Of a DNA stretch of 64,000 nucleotides, positions 4,783-20,538 are shown one piece after another. This DNA comes from Nostoc sp. CENA543. Its GTDB lineage: Bacteria; Cyanobacteriota; Cyanobacteriia; Cyanobacteriales; Nostocaceae. The stretch spans positions 6,013,501 to 6,077,500 of the forward strand of contig NZ_CP023278.1 in assembly GCF_002896875.1 (NCBI RefSeq), written 5' to 3'. A program made the position numbers and the translations under genes. The stretch's first letter is position 1, and each line of letters begins with the position of its first letter. The notes beneath the pieces are model-generated. The model ran no database searches and was not told the DNA's origin. It saw only the letters and a program-made list of their open reading frames with translations.

Positions 4783-5670
4783 TTAAATCAAAATATCAAG
4801 CTGCAACTGCAAAGCAGAATGAGTCTTGTTATCTTTATCTATTTTTTTCTCAGCATTACATTTAAATTTGTAGTTAGTAATGAATAACTCTTTACCTTTT
4901 GCTGCTTTTCCTTGCTTATAGTTATTCATGCCATATTGTAATTCCCATTCGTAGATATGAGCATATTTAAGGTTTTCCCTAATTTGCGGTGAATCATCGT
5001 AAGTAATTAGCCATTGATGATGGCATTGTTTTAATATTTCAGCAAATCTTTGATGGTCGAAAGATGTATGTAAATCGCCATCTTTTCCATATAATTTGGA
5101 TTTTGTAGCACTGAAATATGGTGGATCTAAAAATAAAAATACATTATCACCTTTGGCTTTTACAAGTTCACTGTAGTCCAAATTAGTTATTTGAATATCC
5201 CCATCTAAAATAGTTTCTAGTTTCTCTAATCTTTCTATAGAAGAATATGTAAATCTTTTATGAAAAGCTTCCTGGGAAAATCCTCCTGATTCTACTGTGC
5301 CAGAAAATGTAATTCGATTGAGTACAAAAAAGCGAACTGCTCTTTCTAAATCAGATAGGCTCTTAACATCCACATTAGTTAATTCTGTAAATAGTAATTT
5401 ACCATCGGTATATTTATCTTTAATTTGCTGTATTTCTTTAACTAACTGCACTAGCTCAGATTGAGCGATTTTCCAAAATAAAAATAACTCTTGATTTAAA
5501 TCATTAATCCAAAATTTTAGATGAGGAAACTTTTGCTTAAGATAAATAAAGACTGAACCACCGCCTATAAATGGTTCACGAAATTCAGTAAAACTTTCTG
5601 GTAGATATTCAACTATTTGATTGATGGCTTTTGATTTACCGCCAGGATAGCGGAGAGGGCTTTTGAGCAT
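4783..5670 (-). CDS. Dam-type adenine-N6 DNA methyltransferase
   Basis: 295 aa, D12/Dam class (alpha group). It has the order FxGxG-like SAM motif (PFIGGGSV, residues 34-40) followed by catalytic motif IV DPPY (182-185). The N-terminal SPLRYPGGKSKA and the late TYDDSPQIREN segment are also typical. It transfers a methyl group from SAM to adenine; the target sequence cannot be read from the protein, although GATC is common in this group. It lies 16 bp downstream of, and on the same strand as, a putative endonuclease gene, which suggests a type II restriction-modification unit. Both genes are richer in A+T than neighbouring housekeeping genes, consistent with acquisition. Confidence 0.9.
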   Translation of the reverse strand: MLKSPLRYPGGKSKAINQIVEYLPESFTEFREPFIGGGSVFIYLKQKFPHLKFWINDLNQELFLFWKIAQSELVQLVKEIQQIKDKYTDGKLLFTELTNVDVKSLSDLERAVRFFVLNRITFSGTVESGGFSQEAFHKRFTYSSIERLEKLETILDGDIQITNLDYSELVKAKGDNVFLFLDPPYFSATKSKLYGKDGDLHTSFDHQRFAEILKQCHHQWLITYDDSPQIRENLKYAHIYEWELQYGMNNYKQGKAAKGKELFITNYKFKCNAEKKIDKDNKTHSALQLQLDILI

Positions 5671-5686
5671 TGGTAATATTTTGTGG

Positions 5687-6823
5687 TTAAGAGTTACTAG
5701 TTATTTCTATCTTTAACTTATGGTTATTTTCAGCCTCCAAAAATAGTCTTTTAATTATTTCCTTTTGTTTGTGGCTGAAAATTTTATTGTTGAGCTTGAT
5801 AAAAGCTTCCAATTCTTGATTTGAAGCATCTGGAAATATTATAGAGCCTATAATATTTTTACCAGTTAACTTTAATTTTGCAATAAATGATACTGACACA
5901 CCATTACAAATTAAAGAATCCAAATTAGAAAATAGAATTAATTTGAACAAACCATCTTGAATATCAGGTAACTTGGGTAAAGATGATGTTGAGGAGTTTT
6001 TTGACTCTTGTATGATGTATATATTATCTTCAAATAATATTTCATCTGGAGTCAAATAATAAGTCCCTCCCAGATAGTTCTCAATGCTAAAAGTTGCTTT
6101 TAATCCATCTACTAAATGTTCAAGTTTATGAGAAGTCATTAACTCTCTTTGACTAGCAAGCTGTGATTTTCTCAGGGAAATATTTTTAAATTCTTCAAAT
6201 TCATTAATTATTCTTGTTAAATATTTGTCCAATCCAAGACGTGAATGAACGTTAACGTGAGTGCTATTAGAAATAGAATCATAAGAATCTAAAGCTTTTT
6301 CAAAAATAGCTGCAAACCTTTCTTCAAATAAATATTTATTCCAGTGTAAAGCACTTTGTTTATACGCTAATATCTCATTGATTTGAGAGTTAACTAGTTC
6401 GGAATCAAATTGTTGTCTACTGAGTTTGTCTCGATGTGACTGATTTTTCTTGTTACTCCTCTCTGCTGTTTTATAGTAAGCAAGCACGATGTAAATATTT
6501 AACAAATTCATCCAAGATATCGTAGAATATTGAATAATATCTCTATCCCCATCTTTACCCTCATCTTTGATAACAGGAATAATTGTTATTACTTTAGATG
6601 AAATATATGTATTATAAATTCTTGCAAGAGGGTAACTTCGTGTTCTCTTTGGTGATACCCATTTTGAATAAGCAATTTCTGTGGTCTGTGTCTTGATTAA
6701 TCCATAACTACTTGCTTGATTGATATCAAATACATCTAAACTAAATTCTTTTAAAGTTTCATGCAAGTATGTTTTATATATGACACCCTTAATAAACCCA
6801 GTAAAATTAAGATATTCTAGCAT
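5687..6823 (-). CDS. Putative type II restriction endonuclease (PD-(D/E)xK)
   Basis: 378 aa, family not recognised by eye. The case for an endonuclease is twofold. It is the first gene of a two-gene unit with a DNA methylase. In its C-terminal half it also contains P259-D260, then 12 residues, then E273-S-K275, which fits the PD-(D/E)xK nuclease core, with the acidic/lysine pair on a predicted beta strand (IYIIQESK). The N-terminal half (KDEGKDGDRDIIQYS near residues 87-100) and the Lys/Asn-rich middle have no function that I can assign. The gene is strikingly AT-rich. Alternatively it could be a regulatory or unrelated cargo protein. Confidence 0.65.
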   Translation of the reverse strand: MLEYLNFTGFIKGVIYKTYLHETLKEFSLDVFDINQASSYGLIKTQTTEIAYSKWVSPKRTRSYPLARIYNTYISSKVITIIPVIKDEGKDGDRDIIQYSTISWMNLLNIYIVLAYYKTAERSNKKNQSHRDKLSRQQFDSELVNSQINEILAYKQSALHWNKYLFEERFAAIFEKALDSYDSISNSTHVNVHSRLGLDKYLTRIINEFEEFKNISLRKSQLASQRELMTSHKLEHLVDGLKATFSIENYLGGTYYLTPDEILFEDNIYIIQESKNSSTSSLPKLPDIQDGLFKLILFSNLDSLICNGVSVSFIAKLKLTGKNIIGSIIFPDASNQELEAFIKLNNKIFSHKQKEIIKRLFLEAENNHKLKIEITSNS

Positions 6824-7743: not shown

Positions 7744-9139
7744 CTCACATCTTGCACCTGGAAATCTGGATGTCAAAACCATGACTACGTGCAAGGGGAG
7801 TTAGGCGTTCAATGTGAAGTAAAAGAAGATACACAACCATTTGTGGAAAAATAGACTCAAGGGCAGTTTGTGCAGCCTGACCCCAATCAGGTGGCGATGG
7901 GGACTGAAAATGCAGATAAGTCCAATGAGCAATCAGGTATGCAGCTAGAGAAAGAATTAGCCAGCGATACATCCCCTTGAGAGTTCCTTGCCCAAAACGG
8001 TGCAAGCCAAAACGATGCTTTGCGGTTTTAAACCACCCCTCAATCTGCCAACGACGCTTACCCCACCACTTAAGAGTAGAAGCTTTCATGGGACGGGTAG
8101 ACAAAACAAATCGTTTTTCTAGCTTGCCGTTATCACGCTTTAAGTAATACCACGAAACAGTAACAGGGAACTTTAAACCAAACAGATAAACCTGTTGCCC
8201 CTGCTTATGTAAACGTCTGATAAGTCTGCCATCGGCTAACTTACGACTGATAGATACACCTGTAACAGCATGATATTTAAGCTGACGTACACCCTCAAGA
8301 AACTCTACACTACCAAAAGCAGTATCTGCTAAAATAATAGTCTGAAATTGTTGAGTTAAAGATTGAGGTAAACGTTTCACAAGTTTCAATCCAAGCTGTG
8401 CTGGGGATGGCGTTCCCTTACCCCTCCAAACACGAAAATTCCAAGGAATACGCCATCTTCCTATAACTAAATAAACGACAACTATATGTAAACCACGCTT
8501 GCCGTTGTAAACTCTAATTAAGTCCCCAAATTCTGAGAACTTTCCCCGCTTTTCTAACGTTGTTAAGTCAATAATGACTTGTAAAAAAGGTTTCCTTCCT
8601 GGAGTTGATGACGATAATATCTTTAAAACTGCTTCTAATGCGTGGTGACGGATTACTTTAATCATTTTCCTTGTTGACCAAGGGTTTATGTTTAAGAATC
8701 TGCTGATTGCGCTTGAAGATTTTGTCTGACTGTGTTCGGGTAACGGGTGTCCTTGTGCCTCTAAAAATAAAGTCAGCATCGCTTCTAAATTATCTTTCTG
8801 ATACTGCGTCGGCATCAATTCTTTGAGGGTGTAAACTAGGTTTTGGGCGTGGGCAAGCATTTTTCTTGCTTTTTATCGAATCTACATTTCACGCCTTTTC
8901 TCTCATGTTTTAAGCTTCAAAAGCAACCCTGACGATTTCATGTTGGTCATCTCCTTGCTTATGACGCTCAAAGCATCATCCCAGCATTTTGTTATCTCTG
9001 CGGTTAAATACGTAAAAATGCTAGTTACTGAGTATATTTAGTTACAAAGGCATTTTCCTTATGCTTCTTCCGTTACTGTAATCTTTTGCGCTGTTTATTC
9101 ACTTTTTATGTGTTTACACAGCTAGGTGCAAGATATGAG
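7744..9139. mobile_element. Complete IS element, IS701/IS4-like
   Basis: About 1.4 kb. The outer ends are inverted repeats: CTCACATCTTGCACCT at the left (7744-7759) and its complement at the right (9124-9139), with one mismatch. TTAA flanks both ends (7740-7743 and 9140-9143). This fits the YTAR 4-bp target duplication that I recall for the IS701 family, although TTAA is palindromic and could also be part of the repeat. One transposase gene fills the left part. About 260 bp of non-coding DNA separates its start from the right end. The transposase stop codon lies within the left repeat. Confidence 0.85.
7745..8860 (-). CDS. DDE transposase, IS4/IS701 superfamily
   Basis: 371 aa, apparently intact. 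The DDE residues are readable: first Asp in IIDLTTLEKRG, second in ILADTAFGS, and the Glu in the C-terminal signature WQIEGWFKTAKHRFG, which matches the R/Y-E-K pattern of IS4-type enzymes. The middle is rich in beta-strand-like hydrophobic stretches, as expected for an RNase H fold with an inserted beta domain. It lies inside well-conserved inverted repeats, so the element could be active. The ATG at 8860 is used. Confidence 0.92.
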   Translation of the reverse strand: MLAHAQNLVYTLKELMPTQYQKDNLEAMLTLFLEAQGHPLPEHSQTKSSSAISRFLNINPWSTRKMIKVIRHHALEAVLKILSSSTPGRKPFLQVIIDLTTLEKRGKFSEFGDLIRVYNGKRGLHIVVVYLVIGRWRIPWNFRVWRGKGTPSPAQLGLKLVKRLPQSLTQQFQTIILADTAFGSVEFLEGVRQLKYHAVTGVSISRKLADGRLIRRLHKQGQQVYLFGLKFPVTVSWYYLKRDNGKLEKRFVLSTRPMKASTLKWWGKRRWQIEGWFKTAKHRFGLHRFGQGTLKGMYRWLILSLAAYLIAHWTYLHFQSPSPPDWGQAAQTALESIFPQMVVYLLLLHIERLTPLARSHGFDIQISRCKM

Positions 9140-9796: not shown

Positions 9797-10894
9797 CTAG
9801 CGTGATGAACGAAAGATGACGCGTCCAGGAATTCCTTCATGATTAATTCTGGCATAGACTCGCAGACAGGTTAAAACTTCGCCAGGAACTCCGCCACATT
9901 CTAGTTGTAAATCGTCTTTAGTTAAGGCACAAATATCAGCATAAAGTCCTGTGAGTTGACGTATTCTCACTTCGTGACCGGCATTATTAGCAATCTCCGC
10001 CACTTTTTTTAAAGCACGTCGGGATTCTTGTTGCAGTTTACCCCACCAGGAATATCTTTCGGCGGGAGGAACAAAGATTAGGGAATGTATCGCCTCATCC
10101 ATATCCAGCCAAGCACGTAGCATTGACAAGGGGTCTGTGCTTTCTTCGGCTTTTTTGGTACGGTGGAAGCGATCGCCTAATGCTTCCACATACTGGATTT
10201 TTTGTTCTAGTTGGGAATGTAAATGAATGACATCAAAGCTAAATACACTTTTAAAGGCATGATATAGCTCTGGTTCAATTTCAATAAATTTAGTTAATAA
10301 TACTAAAAAGCTTGCTAATAAAGTTAATTCTTCAGAAGCAGATTCAGGAAGAATTTTAGTTTTTTGTAATGCTTTTTGAGATAAACATAACCCAGGTGAA
10401 ACTACAGTTCCACTTAATCCTGGGTAGATAATTTCATCTCGAATAAAAGGCAAATAATGCAGATGAGAATTATCTGCGATCGCACCTACTTCTTGCGCCA
10501 AATCTAAAGCCCGTTGTCGCCAAAATTCCGCCAAATCTTCAGGAACTCGCAACAGCTTGCGGTGAATTTCATTCCACAAATCCGCATCTGTTTGACTACA
10601 TAAAGGCGAATTCCCCAAATATATACCGAGTTCGACATCCGCATCAAATGCCGCACGCAGATAACCCAATTTTGGTTCACTCTGGGTACAACTGACCGTA
10701 GGTTTCGCTTCTTCCTTAACCTGTAACAAATTGTGAATCTCATACAACACCTGATCACACAATTCAGCACCAGGATCATGATGATATTCCGCTTGCGCCT
10801 TCCTCAGCGTCGCCTCCAATCCATAGAGACTATACCGTAATAACTGCCCCAAAGCTGATTTTTCGATTCCCAATAACTGCTTGAGATGTTGCAT
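9797..10894 (-). CDS. Helical protein of unknown function, third gene of dynamin/Hsp70 operon
   Basis: 365 aa from the ATG at 10894 (AGGTAAAACTC precedes it). The longer TTG-started frame to 10966 runs through an extragenic repeat and is rejected. No motif is recognised. The sequence is rich in Leu, Glu and amphipathic helix-like stretches, with no signal peptide or membrane segment. A few aromatic motifs stand out (AERYSWWGKLQQESRRALKK). It starts 68 bp after the stop of the giant Hsp70-like gene, on the same strand, so it is probably cotranscribed and may be a partner of the ATPase and the GTPase. Confidence 0.8.
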   Translation of the reverse strand: MQHLKQLLGIEKSALGQLLRYSLYGLEATLRKAQAEYHHDPGAELCDQVLYEIHNLLQVKEEAKPTVSCTQSEPKLGYLRAAFDADVELGIYLGNSPLCSQTDADLWNEIHRKLLRVPEDLAEFWRQRALDLAQEVGAIADNSHLHYLPFIRDEIIYPGLSGTVVSPGLCLSQKALQKTKILPESASEELTLLASFLVLLTKFIEIEPELYHAFKSVFSFDVIHLHSQLEQKIQYVEALGDRFHRTKKAEESTDPLSMLRAWLDMDEAIHSLIFVPPAERYSWWGKLQQESRRALKKVAEIANNAGHEVRIRQLTGLYADICALTKDDLQLECGGVPGEVLTCLRVYARINHEGIPGRVIFRSSR

Positions 10895-10962
10895 GAGTTT
10901 TACCTGTTTTGATTTCACGCAAAGACCCTTAGAAAACTCTCTGCGCCTCTGCGTGAGGTTTC

Positions 10963-13900
10963 TCAATGGATACCGGAAAAAGGATCACGTTCCTTATCAA
11001 CCTCATTCGGTTGTAAGTCTAACTCACCACAATAGACACATCCTTCCTGTGTTAAACATTCTAAATCTAGTGATGTTAAATAAGGTACATCACCAGCATG
11101 GATACGCAAAATACCTTTGTCATCAATTGTTACACGATACTGACAAGGATAATCCGTATTCACATTAGGTTTAGCTAACGCGCCGATGCGTATCCATTTT
11201 TTTGTCTGAGTTGCCGCATCCGTTTGGTACATATAAAACGTATGCTGATTACTGTAGGGAAAAGGCGGCAACGGATTACTAATTAAACCGCTTCCTGATG
11301 CGGATTCACCATCATGTAAGTAATGGAATTGTTGCAGAGGTTTACTACCATCTTTGTCTACTTCAAACACCAAATGATAAGCATCTGGATAATCAACTGT
11401 CGCTGATTCAATCACATTTACAGCAATATCACCATCATTTAAATCTTTATCAGGACGTTCAACGGCGATATTCCATTGCAGTTTCCCATTGGTAAATAAT
11501 GATGTTTCTGAGACTTTTGTTAACGCTGCATTAATGTCAATTCCAGGAACATCAATTAAGTAGTGGGGGTTTCCTTGACATAACAAAACTTTAAATTGCA
11601 GTGTTTGGTCAATTTCAAACTGGACTTTAATTTTTCGCAGGAACTCAGCTTCATCCATCCGCAATTGTCCCATCAAGTTTTTACCGTCGAAGCTACCCCA
11701 CAGGCGTAAGTCTCCATCTTCGTAGTCTTGGCGGTAAATAATGTTAGTTAACTGTATCCCTACCCAATTTGTACGAACTTTGGCGACGTTTTCTGAGGCT
11801 GAGAGTTGGTAGAGTTCTTGTCCAGCTTTAAAAACGGTGAGGAGTTCGTTACTTTGGGTTTTGCGTTTGAAGTTGCAAGGTAGGTAATAAAACAGGTTTT
11901 TAACGTCTATTTCTAGTTGATTTGCGCCTTTTTGCAATAATCCTTTGGATTCTTCGGGGTCAAATCTCAGCCTGCGTAGTTTCTCGGCGTAACAAGCACC
12001 GGCGGAGGTGGCGAGTTTGGTGTACTCCAACACAAAGGTAATGCGTTCGGGATTCCAGACAAAATAAGGGGATTTGCTAAATTCTTGGTAAATTTGCCGT
12101 TGTACTAAATCGAGATTGCAGGTTTTACCGGAGAGGATTAACCAATCAACTTTATGGGTGTTCCAGGGGTCGATATTGTTGTTGTCAGGACGCAGACGAC
12201 TTTCCATTAAGCCTTTTGCAATACCAATGGCTTCTTTAATAGCGGAAGCTGCGACGCGTTCAAATTGTTGGTTATCTATGGTGACACAAATATTCTCTGA
12301 GTTTCTCACCTGGAATTTAATTGCGCTTTGGGTGAGGAGTTCTGCAATTTGCTGTTCGGAAAGGGTGAAGGTTAACAGAGAATGATCGGATTTTTGTCCT
12401 AGTTTGAGTTTAGCAGTTTCCGCATGATCCCAAAGGGTATAGAAGGTTTGCAGACGTTGGGGTGCTTGTTGCCAACGGGTGGGGATGACTTTTTCGGCGG
12501 TATCTAACGCGTCTTTATAAGCTGCGTCACCTTCGGGATTTTCCTTATCAACACATTTTAATAAACTGCCACTTTTAAATTTACCTTGTTCTAAAAAGCG
12601 TTCGTTTAATTCGGCGTTGATTAAGTCTTCTAGCTTGTCGCTTTCGATATCACCTTGAGTAACGGCTGTCAGTAAAAAATCAGCGATCGCTACTTTCAAT
12701 AGTCTAAACACTTTCAGGGTAATTAACTCACCACCTAGTTGTAAATGTCCTGAAGAACCCAATAATTTGGGAGTCAATTTATAGTATCTGCCGCCTAAAC
12801 CTCTATCTTCATGACTGGCAAAGTAGGGTGTATTATCTTCCAAGGTGAGTTCAATTAATGCTAAATCCGTCGTCCCCCCACCAATATCTAATACGAGAAC
12901 ATTTTGCGACCATTTATTATTTTCTTGGCGACAACGGGTTTTAAAAGATTCAATGCCAATATTTAAATTACCGCCAAATTCTCGCCATAAAAAGAAGATA
13001 GCCACAGATACCGCTTCATCATAGGCTGTCTGGACATCATCAATTCCCAATTGTTCGACTAAATGCTTAACTTCTTTTCTGACTACAGGCGGTGCGACGG
13101 TGGGATAGGTGACGACGGCGGTTAAAAAATCTCCTTCGGAAAATCTGCGTCTGGCGCGTTGACGATAATCTTCAGTTAATTCGATTAGATGCGCCCATGC
13201 TGCTTGAATCAGTTGACTAACATCAATAATATCTTCTTCACCTTCCAAAATAACTGGAAATTTTCTATCCTGTCCAAAGTAACGCTTGGGTGAATGATGA
13301 AAGCGACTAATAATTTCTTTTAAAGAACTACTGGTTCCCTGTGCGATCGCTTTTTTTCTATTGTCCCTAGCTTCTCTCCCCATGCGGAGTTTGATCGCTT
13401 CTAAACTCGCTACTTCTAACTCGCTGGGAATTTCTGTATCTCGACGGTCAATATCTAAAACTACAGGAATTAAATTTTGAGATTCTAATGTGGGAACGCG
13501 GAAGACTTCATGATAAATTTGATAGAGTTTTTTGCTCACAGCCCGACGAAATCTATCGCTGTTTCCTAAGCATAATTCGATTTGGCGAATCGCTTCTAAG
13601 AATCTCGATTTATTCTCACCGCTAAAAACTTCACTTAAATTACTCGGCTCAATTTCCAGATTTTTACTAATATCAACAATAAACTTATCCCATTCACTTT
13701 CGCTGACCTCCGGTAAGGCAATTATAGCCGGAGAATTCAACCACTGGGACAGGCGATCGCGCAATCTGATTTCCTGTTCTCTGGGTAAAACTTCGGCGAT
13801 AGGCACTTCTATCGGGTCGAACAGAGTCACTGTAGAATTAGATGTGCCGAAATCCACCGCTAACCATCCAGGAAATCTTTTTTTAGCTTTCCCGTTGCTG

Positions 13901-14346
13901 GGTTTTTCGCTACGAACTTCTACAGGATTGATAACTGGATTACTGATGATTTTTTCTTCCATAGGTAGTGACCACAGATGACAATAAGCTGCTACTTTTT
14001 GTCTTACAGATAATAGTGGATTTCCTGAATGGTCAGAGTCAAAATATTCCACCATTACCCGTAAATGACAGTTGATTGCTTGGTTTAAAGGGTGAGATAA
14101 TTTACACGGATATTGTTCTAGTTGACCAATTTGGGAGATTTTGGGAGTTTCAGAATCAAACTTTTTATACGCCTGTTGAATTTTAGTCGCTAATTCACTT
14201 GGTATGCCTTTAACTGTACAGGTGATACTAGAAATATGAGGTACATTATTTCCCGTAGCCAGCAGTTGAATACTGGGTAATTCTAAATACTTTCTATGAT
14301 TAACCCGCACTTGAAAGCGAGGCACAAGTTGAATCTCTACAGGCAT
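10963..14346 (-). CDS. Giant Hsp70/actin-fold ATPase (SrfB-like?)
   Basis: 1127 aa, about twice DnaK size. Residues 1-160 are an extra N-terminal domain. Then comes an actin-like ATPase core: phosphate-1 AVDFGTSNSTV (about 163-173), phosphate-2 LDIGGGTTDLAL (Asp487) and an adenosine-type motif VDWLILSGKTCN, with long insertions between them. The C-terminal 350 residues look beta-rich and have no canonical Hsp70 substrate lid; a CxxC pair (EGCVYCGE) lies near the end. The start has an AAGGAAG ribosome site. It lies between a dynamin-like GTPase (59-bp gap) and a helical protein. This organisation resembles the enterobacterial srfA-srfB-srfC set, in which SrfB is Hsp70-like and SrfC GTPase-like; that comparison is mine and untested. 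Confidence 0.85.
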   Translation of the reverse strand: MPVEIQLVPRFQVRVNHRKYLELPSIQLLATGNNVPHISSITCTVKGIPSELATKIQQAYKKFDSETPKISQIGQLEQYPCKLSHPLNQAINCHLRVMVEYFDSDHSGNPLLSVRQKVAAYCHLWSLPMEEKIISNPVINPVEVRSEKPSNGKAKKRFPGWLAVDFGTSNSTVTLFDPIEVPIAEVLPREQEIRLRDRLSQWLNSPAIIALPEVSESEWDKFIVDISKNLEIEPSNLSEVFSGENKSRFLEAIRQIELCLGNSDRFRRAVSKKLYQIYHEVFRVPTLESQNLIPVVLDIDRRDTEIPSELEVASLEAIKLRMGREARDNRKKAIAQGTSSSLKEIISRFHHSPKRYFGQDRKFPVILEGEEDIIDVSQLIQAAWAHLIELTEDYRQRARRRFSEGDFLTAVVTYPTVAPPVVRKEVKHLVEQLGIDDVQTAYDEAVSVAIFFLWREFGGNLNIGIESFKTRCRQENNKWSQNVLVLDIGGGTTDLALIELTLEDNTPYFASHEDRGLGGRYYKLTPKLLGSSGHLQLGGELITLKVFRLLKVAIADFLLTAVTQGDIESDKLEDLINAELNERFLEQGKFKSGSLLKCVDKENPEGDAAYKDALDTAEKVIPTRWQQAPQRLQTFYTLWDHAETAKLKLGQKSDHSLLTFTLSEQQIAELLTQSAIKFQVRNSENICVTIDNQQFERVAASAIKEAIGIAKGLMESRLRPDNNNIDPWNTHKVDWLILSGKTCNLDLVQRQIYQEFSKSPYFVWNPERITFVLEYTKLATSAGACYAEKLRRLRFDPEESKGLLQKGANQLEIDVKNLFYYLPCNFKRKTQSNELLTVFKAGQELYQLSASENVAKVRTNWVGIQLTNIIYRQDYEDGDLRLWGSFDGKNLMGQLRMDEAEFLRKIKVQFEIDQTLQFKVLLCQGNPHYLIDVPGIDINAALTKVSETSLFTNGKLQWNIAVERPDKDLNDGDIAVNVIESATVDYPDAYHLVFEVDKDGSKPLQQFHYLHDGESASGSGLISNPLPPFPYSNQHTFYMYQTDAATQTKKWIRIGALAKPNVNTDYPCQYRVTIDDKGILRIHAGDVPYLTSLDLECLTQEGCVYCGELDLQPNEVDKERDPFSGIH

Positions 14347-14405
14347 TTTTTATCTTCCTTTACAGGCAGAATTTAATAATCAATAAATTTATGACTAATT
14401 ACTGA

Positions 14406-16955
14406 TTACTGATTAGCTGTTAGGGAATCAGAAATGTTAGCAATTTCTGTGAGATTCTGTAGCCAAGGTGGGACTCTCCCACCAGATTGGGTATCACTAG
14501 CGGCGATAAATCTCAGCAAAGCATCTTTTTTCGAGAGGTTTTGTAAGGTGGGTATAATTTGATCTAAAATCCCCTCCAATTCGCCATTGACTTGTTGATT
14601 AACTTCGCTGACATACTGCACTAAATGCAGGCTGGCACTGGCAGTAATTTCATCACGTAAGCGTAAGATAAATAACTGATGATTAGCGGTTCTAGTTAAA
14701 CCGATATTTTTCTCTGGCGACCAATCAAAGATTTGACCAATATTGTGTTTTTCATCCTGACGCGCTAGAGGAAACATAATTTCAGGGATGAGAGATTTAT
14801 CTTGTTGATTAATCTCCTCTAAAATTACGTCTTGCCATTTATTGGGGTCGCAACCTAACAGCAATTGATAAAATAAATCGGCTTCTTCAGGGCCAAATTT
14901 GGCTTCAATTTCCTGTTCCATTTCTGGGGTCAAAATCGCCAATAGCTGATCGCGCTCTGGGGCAATCTGGTGAGATAATCTACTGAGTAAGTCTACTACA
15001 GCTTGCTGGATGCGATCGCGCGCAAATTCTTCCACTTCTTTGACTGTCTTGGCGAAGGCGGGGTAAAAGTCATCGCTTTTAGTCGGGATGCTGCTATTGG
15101 TTCTACTACCTCTATCAAATAACTTCCCGGCTGCACCTTTTGATTCGGTTAAAGTAATTGTGCCGTTATTGATTTTGTTAAATAATAAAGTCCATTGATT
15201 CCAACTAATCACTCTAAAGGTGAGTTCATCTTTAACTACATCACTCACCACTGTTCCCCGGCGGTCTTTGAGTGGTTGTTTGCCGATATCTTTTTGAAAA
15301 TGACGATAGGTTTTATCTAAACTTTCAATGGCGTTTCTTAAGTCAATTAAAGCCTCAGAATCACCGGTGGGAATACCTTGGGCGTGAATTTCGGCAATAA
15401 TAGCTTTGAGGTTTTCCTGTTGTAATTTTAAATTTTCGGCGGCGCGTCTAGTATCTTCATATAGTTGCTTGAGTCCGTGAGTCGCAACGTGATTTTGAAT
15501 TAACTCCCGCAGTTTGGCGATACCCCCATCTTGAGCAAAGTAACCCAATTTTCTGCCTAAACCGTGACGCGGATCTGATTCTAACAGGCGATCGCTCAAC
15601 TTGCGCCATTTTTGTTGCAGTCGCTTTGACCTTTCTAAATACTCTGGATAATCTAAGTTAGCTAAAAATTCTGGTGAACCAGCTTTCACACTGCTAGAAC
15701 GTTTGGCTAATTCGGCTAGTCCCAATAGGGGAGAGAGTAGTACAATGCGGTCTTGATTAATTGTGAATGCACTCGCGCCATCGATGGTGGTTTGCAACAC
15801 CTTGAGTTTTCGCAATACCGCCTCAGCTGTGAGTTGGGGGGTACGACTATCATCAATGAGTGAATCTAATTCTCTCTCGCCGCCTTCACTTTCTAAAGGT
15901 AATTGGTCAAACCGTCCTACACCCACCAAAATTAAATCCTTGAGGTCTTGTCCAGGACGCTGTTGCTGCATCATCGTGAAAATTTTGTGGGCGCGATCGC
16001 TCCCTGGTGATTTACCATTGAGCAGTACGAGAATTGTTTGCACCTCCGCCAATTCCCGCAGGGATAAAAAGGTATCCCGCGCGCCAGAATTCGCCGCACC
16101 CAAACCAGGAAAATCTAACAAAATAAATCTATCTGCACCGGTGACATCCCAAATTTCTTGAGAAATTCTCACTTCAATATCAATGCGCCGAATTAACGGG
16201 AAACTATTTTGTAATAACTTCGTGGGTAAGGTTTGGGGGGGACTCGGTAAACGAATATGCGCCGGTGGTAAGTCTTCAAAGCGTAGGGTTTGGATAGCCA
16301 TTGGCTGTTCTGCTAACTGTAACCCGTCCTTTGCTGTGACTGCATCGATGGGGTAGCGTTTCCCGCACAATACTTCGTAGGAAGCATAAGCGCGTAAAAA
16401 CACTACCAATTCCCGCACCAGATAGCGCAATTCCAAATTATTGCTACTATTCCAAGTTTCTTGACACCATCGGAGAATTTCGTTTCCAGAGTTGAGGGTG
16501 GCGGTGGGAATGGGGGGAAGTCCGGCGGCGATAGTCCGGCGGTTAGCTTCCCCCAACATGAAACGCAAGCATTCATTTACCCCTTCCCGCGTTAAATATT
16601 CCACGGTGAAATTACCAACTTGCGTCGTGGCAAAGCCCGCTTGGGGGATGATATGAATAGCCGTGACATTACCTGTAGTGGGATTTTCGCTGATGGGTAA
16701 AGCATCCCCGTAGCCGATTAAACTACCTAAAAGTAAAGTTTTGCCGCTACTAAACTCTCCCATTACACCGATTTTTACAGGAGAGGTAGCAAGACCTACG
16801 GTTTTCTCCGCACTTTCTCGGAGACGTAAAATACATTCATCTAAGCTAGTAGGCACCCAATCTTCTTGTTGAGAAGGATTTTGCGGAACAGAAGTAATTT
16901 TTTCTAAAATCAGTTCGCCGTACTCTTTAAAACATCCTATTTTTTCTAGTTCCAT
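14406..16955 (-). CDS. Dynamin-like GTPase
   Basis: 849 aa from the ATG at 16955, preceded by GGCAGG; a TTG five codons upstream is the alternative. The G domain has a P-loop GEFSSGKT (66-73), G2 Thr in NPTTGNVTA, G3 DFPGLGA (Asp281) and a degenerate G4 (VGVGRFDQL instead of NKxD). The FSSGKT form and a long helical C-terminal region (about residues 480-840) are those of bacterial dynamin-like proteins, which remodel or tether membranes. No transmembrane hairpin is obvious. First gene of the operon with the Hsp70-like ATPase; divergent from a sensor kinase about 0.8 kb away. SrfC-type GTPases are the nearest functional analogue that I can suggest. Confidence 0.85.
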   Translation of the reverse strand: MELEKIGCFKEYGELILEKITSVPQNPSQQEDWVPTSLDECILRLRESAEKTVGLATSPVKIGVMGEFSSGKTLLLGSLIGYGDALPISENPTTGNVTAIHIIPQAGFATTQVGNFTVEYLTREGVNECLRFMLGEANRRTIAAGLPPIPTATLNSGNEILRWCQETWNSSNNLELRYLVRELVVFLRAYASYEVLCGKRYPIDAVTAKDGLQLAEQPMAIQTLRFEDLPPAHIRLPSPPQTLPTKLLQNSFPLIRRIDIEVRISQEIWDVTGADRFILLDFPGLGAANSGARDTFLSLRELAEVQTILVLLNGKSPGSDRAHKIFTMMQQQRPGQDLKDLILVGVGRFDQLPLESEGGERELDSLIDDSRTPQLTAEAVLRKLKVLQTTIDGASAFTINQDRIVLLSPLLGLAELAKRSSSVKAGSPEFLANLDYPEYLERSKRLQQKWRKLSDRLLESDPRHGLGRKLGYFAQDGGIAKLRELIQNHVATHGLKQLYEDTRRAAENLKLQQENLKAIIAEIHAQGIPTGDSEALIDLRNAIESLDKTYRHFQKDIGKQPLKDRRGTVVSDVVKDELTFRVISWNQWTLLFNKINNGTITLTESKGAAGKLFDRGSRTNSSIPTKSDDFYPAFAKTVKEVEEFARDRIQQAVVDLLSRLSHQIAPERDQLLAILTPEMEQEIEAKFGPEEADLFYQLLLGCDPNKWQDVILEEINQQDKSLIPEIMFPLARQDEKHNIGQIFDWSPEKNIGLTRTANHQLFILRLRDEITASASLHLVQYVSEVNQQVNGELEGILDQIIPTLQNLSKKDALLRFIAASDTQSGGRVPPWLQNLTEIANISDSLTANQ

Positions 16956-17660
16956 AGAGTAGCCTGCCAATAAGATAATTTCTGTGAGTTTTATAACACA
17001 AAAAAAGTCTGCAACTTTTATATCTACAAGTAGTTGAGCCTATCTTTCGGAAGATTTTGCCCTAATTTCCTCTCTGATGTGAATTCTTATTGATAAATTT
17101 AAATCTTTTGCAGATCACAGTCATATATTTGTTTTATTTTCTGCATATTTCGCAATGAATTAAATTCAAAAAATTAATACATAATAGTTGATTTATCAGA
17201 TCAATAAAAATAAAATTAACTAATATTAATTTTATTCTCAGTGTTTATCCTGGTTTTGGCTATGTTCTGTGATTCAGATTTACTACAGATAATTTTGCCT
17301 ACACAATTTTAATTTTCATCTGGTTTTGACCTATTTTTCAGTAGTATCACCCATACTGTATTTGTGGTGATGATCTAGCATATTTGTAAAATATTTATCA
17401 ATCAATCAATAAATAAGTGAAATTTTTAATTCATATAAATTAAAATAGTAATTCGGTTAAATGACTTCTTGCCTATAGGATTCATTTTTGATTTAGCGGC
17501 TAAACTCCCTAAATTCCCTTGTTTGCCGTCATCTATTTGGTTGAGTATGGAAAATAGAAAATTACTGCCTGTAACAAAATTGTATCAAGCTATCTACCTG
17601 ATTTATTTGGTAAATTGATATGTAGTATTTTTGATAAAAAACATCCTCTGGAGGTATTTA
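16956..17660. other. AT-rich divergent intergenic region
   Basis: About 700 bp between the dynamin operon and the sensor kinase leader. Very AT-rich, with no convincing coding frame. It should hold the promoters of both units; no operator can be named. Confidence 0.5.
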
Positions 17661-17760: not shown

Positions 17761-20538
17761 GTGTCACTATCAAATAATGAATCTACATCAGTAGAAAATA
17801 CCATCAAACAACTACAAACAGAAGTTGGAGAACACAACCCAACTCAACAGAAACTATCCCCAAAAAGCTTAGAATTATCAGGATTACTGCAACTCATCCC
17901 AGACACATACTTACGACTAGATGCCGAAGGGAAAATTCTAGAATACAAACCAGGCGCAACAGAATATGCAGATAACTTACCCAAAATAACTTTAGATAAA
18001 CCTTTCATAGCACAATTTCCACAGCAGATTGGAGATGAATTTCAACAGGCGATCGCGAAGACATTACAAACTCAATCACCTGTGAACATAACATATGATT
18101 TATCAGTTACAGATATAGTTTATACTTTTACAGCCAAATTTTTAGCTTTATCATCCCAGGAAATTATTGTCTTAATTCGTGAAAATTATCATCGCTTAAA
18201 GACACAACTGCTCGATAAGTATCATCAATTTCAAGATATTCTCGAAAACTCCAATAATATTATTTTTGTTCTGACAACAACTGGTGAATTTGCCTATGCT
18301 TCCCCCAATTGGACAGAGATTTTAGGACATGATATAGCCGAAGTCATAGGTAAATCTTTCGTTCCCTTTGTACATCCTGATGATGTCCAAATTTGTACAG
18401 ATTATTTATCAACGGTTTTTAAAATCGGCAAAAAACAAGAACCCATTGAATATCGAGTCAAGCATAAAAATGGGGAATGGCGATGGCACACAAGTAGTGC
18501 AGGTGCGATTAAAAATGCCGACAACCAAGTCTTATATTTTGTAGGCATTTCTTACGACATTACAAAACGTAAACAACAAGAAGCAATTCTCACTCACAGA
18601 ATTCAGTTAGCAGACTTTCGGGCGGAAGTTGACGCTTGTTTGACTCAAAGTTTTACTTTACAGCAGATGATGTCTGGCTGTACCGAAGCCATCGTCAAAC
18701 ATTTAGATGCAGCTTTTGCCAGGATTTGGATATTGAATAAACAAGAAAACGTCCTAGAGTTGCAAGTCAGTTCGGGAATTTATACCCACATTGACGGCAA
18801 TTATCAACGTGTACCAGTCGGTCAATACAAAATAGGTTTAATTGCCCAAGAAGGTCAACCCCATTTAACCAACTCAGTCCAAACAGATTCCCGCATCAGT
18901 GACAAGGAATGGGCTAAACAAGAGGGAATGGTAGCGTTTGCTGGTTATCCTTTAATGGTAGAAGGAGAAAATTTAGGCGTAATTGCCATGTTTTCTCGCC
19001 ACACATTAACTGAATCAACCTTTGATATTTTAGGCATTGTCGCACACGAAATTGCCATTGGCATTAAGCGCAAACAGACTGAAGCTGCCCTGCGAGAATC
19101 GGAAGCAAAATTCCGAGAAATTGCCCAAAAAGAAGCATTGCTTAACCGTCTTGCTAGTCAGATTCGCGCCTCTTTAGAACTTAATTATATTGTAGAAACC
19201 GCAGTCACAGAAATTCACCAACTTTTCCAAATTGATCGCTGTGCTTTTTGGTGGTACAGACAAAATACAGATGTACCTAATTGGGAAATTGTCTATGAAG
19301 TCCAAAATTATCCTGAAAAATGTTTGCTATCTCCTGAAATTCAAAATACAGAAGTACAACTCATAGCCGAAAAAACATTAAATAAAGAGATTATCCGCAT
19401 CGATAATGTAGAGACATTGACAGATACTGCTGCCCAAAAGTTTTTACGAGATTTTCACCTGACAGCTTTTTTAGCTTTGCCTGTACACACACAATCAGGA
19501 GAAATTGGGGCGTTTACCTGTAGTTATTGTAGTGGTTTTCGACCTTGGTTAAATCATGAAGTGGAATTACTACAATCTGTAACAAATCAGCTAGCGATCG
19601 CCATAGACCAAGCTAAACTCTACACCCAAAGCCGCATCGCTGCTCAAACTGCCCAAGAAAAAGCCCAGCAATTAGAAGCCGCCTTACGAGAATTACAACA
19701 AACCCAAGTCCAGTTAATTCATTCTGAAAAAATGTCTAGTTTGGGGCAATTAGTAGCAGGTATTGCCCACGAAATTAATAACCCTGTAAATTTTATTTAC
19801 GGTAACATCAACCACGCCCGTGAATATGTTAAAGATTTGCTGGATTTAGTTGAACTATATAAACAAAATTATTGTCCACCAGTGGCAGAAATTCGGGAAT
19901 TTATTGATGCTATAGATTTAGATTTTCTCACACAAGATTTACTCAAAGTTTTAAATTCCATGAATTTAGGAGCAGAACGAATTCGGCAGTTAGTTCTCTC
20001 CTTAAGGAACTTCTCCCGTTTAGACGAGGACGGCATGAAGTTGGTAGATATTCATGAAGGTATTGATAGCACTTTGTTAATCTTACAAAACCGCCTGAAA
20101 GCCAAACCAGGATTTACGGAAATTCAAATTATTAAAGAATATGGTGATTTACCAAAAGTAGTCTGTCACGCTGGACAGATGAACCAAGTATTTATGAACT
20201 TATTGGCAAATGCAATTGATGCTTTAGAAGATGCCACAACAGATGACCAAGAAAATTTAACGCCACCTCAAATTCGCATTCAAACGCAATTGACTGATGA
20301 TCAGCAAGTGATGATTACCATTGCCGATAATGGCCCTGGAATGACGGAAGAAATTCGCGATCGCTTATTTGACCCCTTCTTTACCACAAAACCTGTAGGC
20401 AAAGGCACTGGGATTGGTTTGTCAATCAGCTATCAAATCATTGTCAATAAACACCAAGGGAAATTAGTATGTATCTCCACTCCAGGTAAAGGAGCAAAGT
20501 TTATCATTACCATTCCCCTATTAAAATCATCTAGTTGA
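17761..20538 (+). CDS. PAS/GAF sensor histidine kinase
   Basis: 925 aa, GTG start with AGGGTGG upstream. Domains in order: a degenerate PAS-like region (about 40-140), a PAS domain with PAC (about 155-275, ending [12 protein letters not shown]), a GAF domain (about 283-440), a second GAF (about 460-620), a coiled coil (about 625-655), then a cyanobacterial-type kinase core. This core has an H-box [13 protein letters not shown] (His670), N-box [11 protein letters not shown] and G-boxes ADNGPGM and GKGTGIGLS. No transmembrane segment, so it is a soluble sensor. No receiver domain or adjacent response regulator, so the phosphorelay partner is elsewhere. Whether it controls the divergent dynamin operon is unknown. 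Confidence 0.95.

Follow-up and report, generated by a model that had tools for sequence, protein, structure and literature searches.

A co-inherited gene trio of the Nostoc family joins a predicted dynamin-like GTPase to an SrfB-like actin-fold ATPase and a helical protein

A 64,000-nucleotide stretch of the Nostoc sp. CENA543 genome (NZ_CP023278.1, positions 6,013,501 to 6,077,500; hereafter ‘the window’), located on the largest contig of this 7.2 Mb genome, carries three neighboring genes, p1, p2 and p3, which are predicted to encode a dynamin-like GTPase, an SrfB-like Hsp70/actin-fold ATPase and a mostly helical protein, respectively (Table 1). The first-pass annotation, made from the sequence alone, had described three same-strand genes with short gaps, and all three are indeed minus-strand open reading frames, with 59 bp between p1 and p2 and 68 bp between p2 and p3. 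Conservation of the neighborhood, named there as a check, is found as well: the three genes co-occur in other genomes, and the order p1-p2-p3 on one strand is complete in 77 of 82 compared loci, an identity of order and strand that argues against a chance arrangement. Of the five incomplete loci, a contig end truncates three (L071, L108 and L126), and the flank holds no p3 in the other two (L033 and L097). Fold, profile and motif together give good support to a dynamin-like protein joined to an actin-fold ATPase, and the three genes form one co-inherited unit, a solid module.

The product of p1 is predicted, from its sequence and structure model, to be a large dynamin-like GTPase that retains its phosphate-binding residues. 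The GTPase motifs quoted in the first-pass annotation are present and conserved, with G1 (G-E-F-S-x-G-K) and G3 (DFPGLG) invariant in 39 aligned sequences. The profile that matches p1 is Dynamin_N of Pfam, not that of a translation GTPase; it matches 15 of 15 p1 members (best E 5.6e-9), with the window protein at 25.5 bits, just below the cut-off of 27. Of the 39 members, 38 match the LeoA profile of PADLOC. An AlphaFold model built with the 39 sequences (predicted local distance difference test score, pLDDT, 76.9) shows a G domain followed by long helices, and a Foldseek comparison of this model with the PDB gave 42 matches at E<=0.001, with SynDLP at the top (2.0e-14) and Nostoc BDLP third (7.0e-10). 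The best 50 of 321 matches at E<=10 all belong to the dynamin superfamily. Trp585 and Trp588 are also invariant in the 39 aligned sequences and stand beside a weakly modelled stretch (586-628) between long helices, a position which we take to match that of the membrane-binding tip of BDLP. The stretch near these residues may therefore serve as a membrane tip. In one genome (G019, locus L050, 11402-13989) p1 is split into two frames, which reflects either a genuine mutation or a sequencing error.

The product of p2 is, as predicted from sequence, an Hsp70/actin-fold ATPase and a distant relative of SrfB, again with phosphate-binding residues kept, in agreement with the chaperone-type ATPase first proposed. 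In 39 aligned sequences the D-x-GGGTTD motif is invariant, DFGTSNS is at least 90% conserved and the adenosine-type motif is conserved. SrfB (PF07520) is the best Pfam match of the window protein (E 1.1e-5, residues 434-505), covering about 70 of 992 model positions collinearly around the phosphate-2 motif; at 24.2 bits it does not reach the curated cut-off of 27.1 bits. SrfB is nevertheless the best Pfam match in 39 of 39 p2 members at E<=1. HSP70 (PF00012; 11.1 bits, short of its curated cut-off of 20.6 bits) and MreB (10.8 bits) score lower on the window protein. The YegD-type NCBIfam model PRK11678 matches all 39 members weakly, and weak matches are also seen to MreB (29/39) and FtsA (6/39). 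The N-terminal part of about 135 aa is absent in many Nostoc. Several Nostoc loci (L087, L088, L095, L100, L106 and L110) have a p1-p2 gap enlarged to 0.5-1.6 kb; those inspected hold a whole or partial DUF2887-type gene (PF11103; the L088 copy was tested) between intact flanking genes, which looks like a mobile insertion within the operon. The enlarged gap was also considered as the home of the missing p2 N-terminus and rejected, as tblastn found a match in only 2 of 19 loci, where it was part of p2.

The third protein belongs to no known family, with profile matches that are isolated, weak and found in one or two members each, and a fold search with its model gave no match at E<=0.001. Its C-terminal part is conserved and includes WWG, KDDLQL, PGEV and PGRV. 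A sequence search for solved relatives of p1, p2 and p3 returned nothing convincing (best E 0.17-3).

Searches across cyanobacteria place the trio in a single family, referred to here as the Nostoc family (GTDB Nostocaceae), a name inferred from the genera of p2 relatives. The best 80 of 175 such relatives are all cyanobacterial and come from Nostoc, Anabaena, Trichormus, Dolichospermum, Nodularia and similar genera. In a single-protein search, p2 was found in 32 of 292 cyanobacterial genomes, all 32 in the Nostoc family, and the SrfB model finds the same 32, with only 5 of the 292 over its curated cut-off. The p1 profile also matches these 32 over its length (split in two frames in G019), and outside the family it finds only weak P-loop matches in six genomes (E 6e-5 to 1.4e-4). 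None of the unmatched genomes listed (20 per search) belongs to the Nostoc family. Within the family p2 is present in 211 of 217 genomes (202/206 of high quality) and p3, for which searches covered this family only, in 209 of 217 (201/206 of high quality); p1 was looked for in selected genomes of the family. All three genes are missing from G321, G329, G448, G449 and G460, one of which has a weak P-loop match, while G314 and G457 hold p1 and part of p2 with no p3, p1 or p2 lying near a contig end. Plasmid searches found no relative of p1 or p2, and a phage search none of p2.

The three genes are also kept, moved, broken, lost and doubled together. Among 36 selected Nostoc-family genomes, mostly of divergent genera, all 36 hold the three genes or their remains, even where these are unlinked. 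In G051, G174, G324, G326 and G452, p3 is distant from p2 or sits on a different contig (G324 may reflect a draft break), and the distance between p1 and p2 reaches about 360 kb in G292 and 4-7 kb in G458 and G364. In G325, a genome of 4.9 Mb with congeners of 7.8-7.9 Mb, all three genes are broken, p1 and p2 at a shared site and p3 elsewhere. The six genomes without p2 all lack p3, for which the hypergeometric chance is 2e-10 if kinship and draft gaps are ignored. G340, G341 and G343 have two complete trios each; their congeners G344 and G345 have one. An unrooted tree of each protein was built by a quick method from 39 matched sets, and the three trees share the same deep split of 15 and 24 sequences with support of 100 in each, and the two sets of G343 (L155 and L156) fall on opposite sides of it in all three trees. 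Co-retention, joint decay, joint doubling and the shared split support co-inheritance, and thus the earlier proposal of the trio as one unit. The 11-12 Mb genomes of this one genus (G340, G341 and G343) hold both deep trio types side by side, and one of the two sets may have been gained by transfer.

Table 1. Features of the gene trio and its surroundings in the window (positions in nucleotides of the window unless given as residues)
Feature	Position	Strand	Remarks
p1, predicted dynamin-like GTPase	14406-16955	minus	849 aa from ATG; 854 aa if started at a TTG 15 bp upstream
p1 P-loop	residues 66-73		
p1 DFPGLG motif	residues 281-286		
p1 G4 position			non-canonical, GRFDQ
p1 helical stalk region			
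p2, predicted SrfB-like Hsp70/actin-fold ATPase	10963-14346	minus	1127 aa
p2 phosphate-1 motif	residues 165-171		DFGTSNS
p2 phosphate-2 motif	residues 487-494		DIGGGTTD
p2 adenosine-type motif	residues 739-741		SGK
p3, mostly helical protein, no known family	9797-10894	minus	365 aa from ATG; an upstream TTG would give 389 aa
Conserved promoter-like block (predicted)	16977-17000	minus	TGTGTTATAAAACTCACAGAAATT; 22-45 bp before the p1 ATG
PAS/GAF kinase	17761-20538	plus	divergent neighbor of the trio
D12-class DNA adenine methylase	4783-5670		
Unmatched gene	5687-6823		378 aa
DDE-type transposase	7745-8860		near the trio

Upstream of p1, the sequence TGTTATAA is present in 81 of 95 full-length upstream regions (of 121 found), many of which come from close relatives. 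NtcA-type sites are not in excess in these regions (12/95 versus 11.1 in shuffled sequences), nor are DIF-type sites. Gene families seen in the flanks of the 82 loci include a D12-class methylase (42 loci), a cytochrome b561-like gene (28), a PAS/GAF-type kinase (22) and a DUF2887-type gene (17). The divergent PAS/GAF kinase, which the first-pass annotation had proposed as a possible sensor for the trio, is present in the window; the proposed sensor role is not upheld, and the kinase was rejected as a conserved partner, as it occurs in the flank of only 22 of 82 loci, a lower bound since some contigs end early. The D12-class methylase lies downstream of the trio in its 42 loci and, in the window, beside an unmatched gene with which it possibly forms a restriction pair. 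The nearby DDE-type transposase has a relative in 1 of 20 loci compared.

These findings can be brought together in one possible explanation, in which the trio would be a three-part machine of the Nostoc family with a likely part in membrane upkeep or repair; judged from sequence, we hold this reading with about even confidence. In such a machine the tip of the helical stalk would let p1 assemble on a membrane, and the ATP cycle of p2 would load, position or strip p1, in the manner of either Hsp70 partners acting on coat assemblies or a scaffold of actin type. The third protein would be the adaptor joining p1 and p2. Both the membrane work and this division of labor are proposed roles, and in these filamentous cyanobacteria the trio would probably serve to maintain or repair thylakoids, septa or the plasma membrane rather than to fix nitrogen as such. 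Several observations weigh against this reading. The template modelling scores (TM-scores) of the p1 fold matches are low, at 0.15-0.43, and therefore the domain order of p1 fits that of dynamins while its overall posture does not superpose. The canonical G4 motif of the dynamin superfamily is [NT]KxD, which p1 does not have, reading GRF[DN]Q in 39 of 39 members; because of this, GTP as the nucleotide of p1 stays a prediction. A simple hydropathy scan gave no membrane-spanning helix in p1, p2 or p3 (highest 19-residue means 1.13, 1.73 and 1.51, respectively), and the p3 model is poor, if helical, with a pLDDT of 59.8. Finally, in G312, a genome 89% complete, p1 is intact, other genes occupy the p2 site and neither p2 nor p3 was found, which argues against strict interdependence of the three genes.

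Other explanations for the trio draw on parts of the same evidence. The actin-fold motifs of p2, its weak MreB and FtsA matches and the near-universal presence of the trio in a filamentous lineage would also fit a cytoskeletal system, in which p2 would form actin-like filaments and p1 and p3 would be accessory, anchoring or shaping, for example at septa. We consider this unlikely, since SrfB and Hsp70/YegD-type models match p2 equally well or better and the filaments are hypothetical. A rather improbable reading takes the trio as a cyanobacterial srfABC, identical with the enterobacterial system and active at the cell surface, perhaps in surface movement. SrfB as the best Pfam match of p2 speaks for it, as do three genes of roughly similar sizes, the reported heteromeric complex of the products of the Xenorhabdus srfABC genes (1395, 3021 and 2682 bp; PMC6950479) and the reported poor swarming of Salmonella srfB and srfC mutants (PMC4219756). 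It is weakened by the small part of the SrfB model that is matched, below cut-off for the window protein, by the lack of an SrfC match and by a gene order that runs the other way round if the GTPase is taken to be SrfC.

Two further readings concern defense and nitrogen. Anti-phage or membrane-stress defense has been proposed for some bacterial dynamins, and DynA is reported to delay lysis after phage infection (PMC9950537). The LeoA profile of PADLOC, a weak match between p2 and PDC-M61B (E 0.019) and the nearby D12-class methylase in about half of the loci (42/82) point the same way. Defense genes, however, are patchily spread, unlike a trio that is near-universal in one family; as the plasmid searches gave no relative of p1 or p2 and the phage search none of p2, we regard defense as very unlikely. 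The Nostoc family is a family of heterocyst formers, and apart from the weak P-loop matches of p1, p1 and p2 are restricted to it in the phylum sample, which would suggest a role in heterocyst formation or nitrogen fixation. Of 217 Nostoc-family genomes, 177 have nifH over the cut-off, and p2 absences are slightly fewer among these (3/177 versus 3/40; Fisher p = 0.078), p2 being present in 174 of the 177. Yet 37 of the 40 genomes without nifH over the cut-off also keep p2, including that of the window, which has no nifH over the cut-off (best E 2.1e-74) and appears to be without nitrogenase. G325 has nifH and yet has lost the trio, and NtcA-type sites are not in excess upstream. Trio presence does not track nifH; nitrogen fixation as its main role is not favored, and we give this reading the lowest probability of all.

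A three-part machine for membrane upkeep or repair is thus the reading we prefer. To our knowledge few bacterial dynamins have an established task, and here one bacterial dynamin is tied to an ATPase of known fold and a third protein across roughly 200 genomes. The Nostoc family includes laboratory strains that are easy to manipulate, which makes a dynamin partnership with a chaperone- or actin-type ATPase directly testable. It also offers a harmless organism for work on an SrfB relative; the function of srfB and srfC has been called unclear (PMC3608642). In a bolder and rather doubtful extension, a two-motor membrane machine of dynamin GTPase, SrfB-type ATPase and adaptor would date from the base of the Nostoc family and be near-obligatory there, and proteobacterial SrfABC, described as a virulence factor or toxin, would be its distant relative, likewise remodelling membranes inside the bacterium.

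Part of this arrangement has a precedent. A 2018 survey reports a ‘chaperone’ clade among the dynamin-like proteins of cyanobacteria, in which a gene with a DnaK domain is conserved downstream (PMC5827413), and p2, Hsp70-like by motif and weak profile, follows p1 in the same way; the p1-p2 pair is therefore probably the one already known. The available part of the survey mentions neither a third gene nor a link to SrfB (PMC5827413). Outside the cited papers, as judged by titles, no published link of the third gene or of SrfB to the pair was found, and among the matches listed for SrfB with dynamin, SrfB with cyanobacteria, dynamin with heterocyst and Anabaena, and the wider literature, no title describes the trio. 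An extended P-loop, GxxxxGKS/TxL/INALL/I, is reported in nearly all surveyed cyanobacterial dynamins (PMC5827413), whereas p1 reads GEFSSGKTLLLGSLI and misses it. Like SynDLP, Nostoc BDLP and LeoA, p1 has a G domain and a long helical stalk (for background on bacterial dynamins see PMC6104087 and PMC9950537), and unlike them it is partnered with an ATPase, not with a second dynamin, and carries the divergent G4. Similarly, p2 shares the phosphate-1, phosphate-2 and adenosine-type motifs with Hsp70/YegD-type ATPases and differs from them in its greater length, with extra N- and C-terminal parts, and in an HSP70 score below cut-off.

The resemblance to the enterobacterial srfABC genes suggested in the first-pass annotation holds for SrfB only, because p2 matches SrfB weakly and p1 has no match to SrfC. 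The SrfB likeness lies in the best Pfam match of p2 and its collinearity around the phosphate-2 motif, and the difference in its restriction to a short, sub-threshold segment. For SrfC, a candidate identity of p1 rejected by profile, the model PF10139 (Virul_Fac) gave no match at E<=10 in 15 p1 members, though very weak matches may be lost to speed filters. SrfABC membership of the trio is accordingly not established. The likeness of p1 to SrfC is one of context and size, both being partners of an SrfB-type protein in a three-gene operon, with 878 model positions for SrfC. If p1 were equated with SrfC, the order of the trio would be the reverse of srfA-srfB-srfC; in either case the trio, as SrfABC, is a three-gene operon with co-inheritance.

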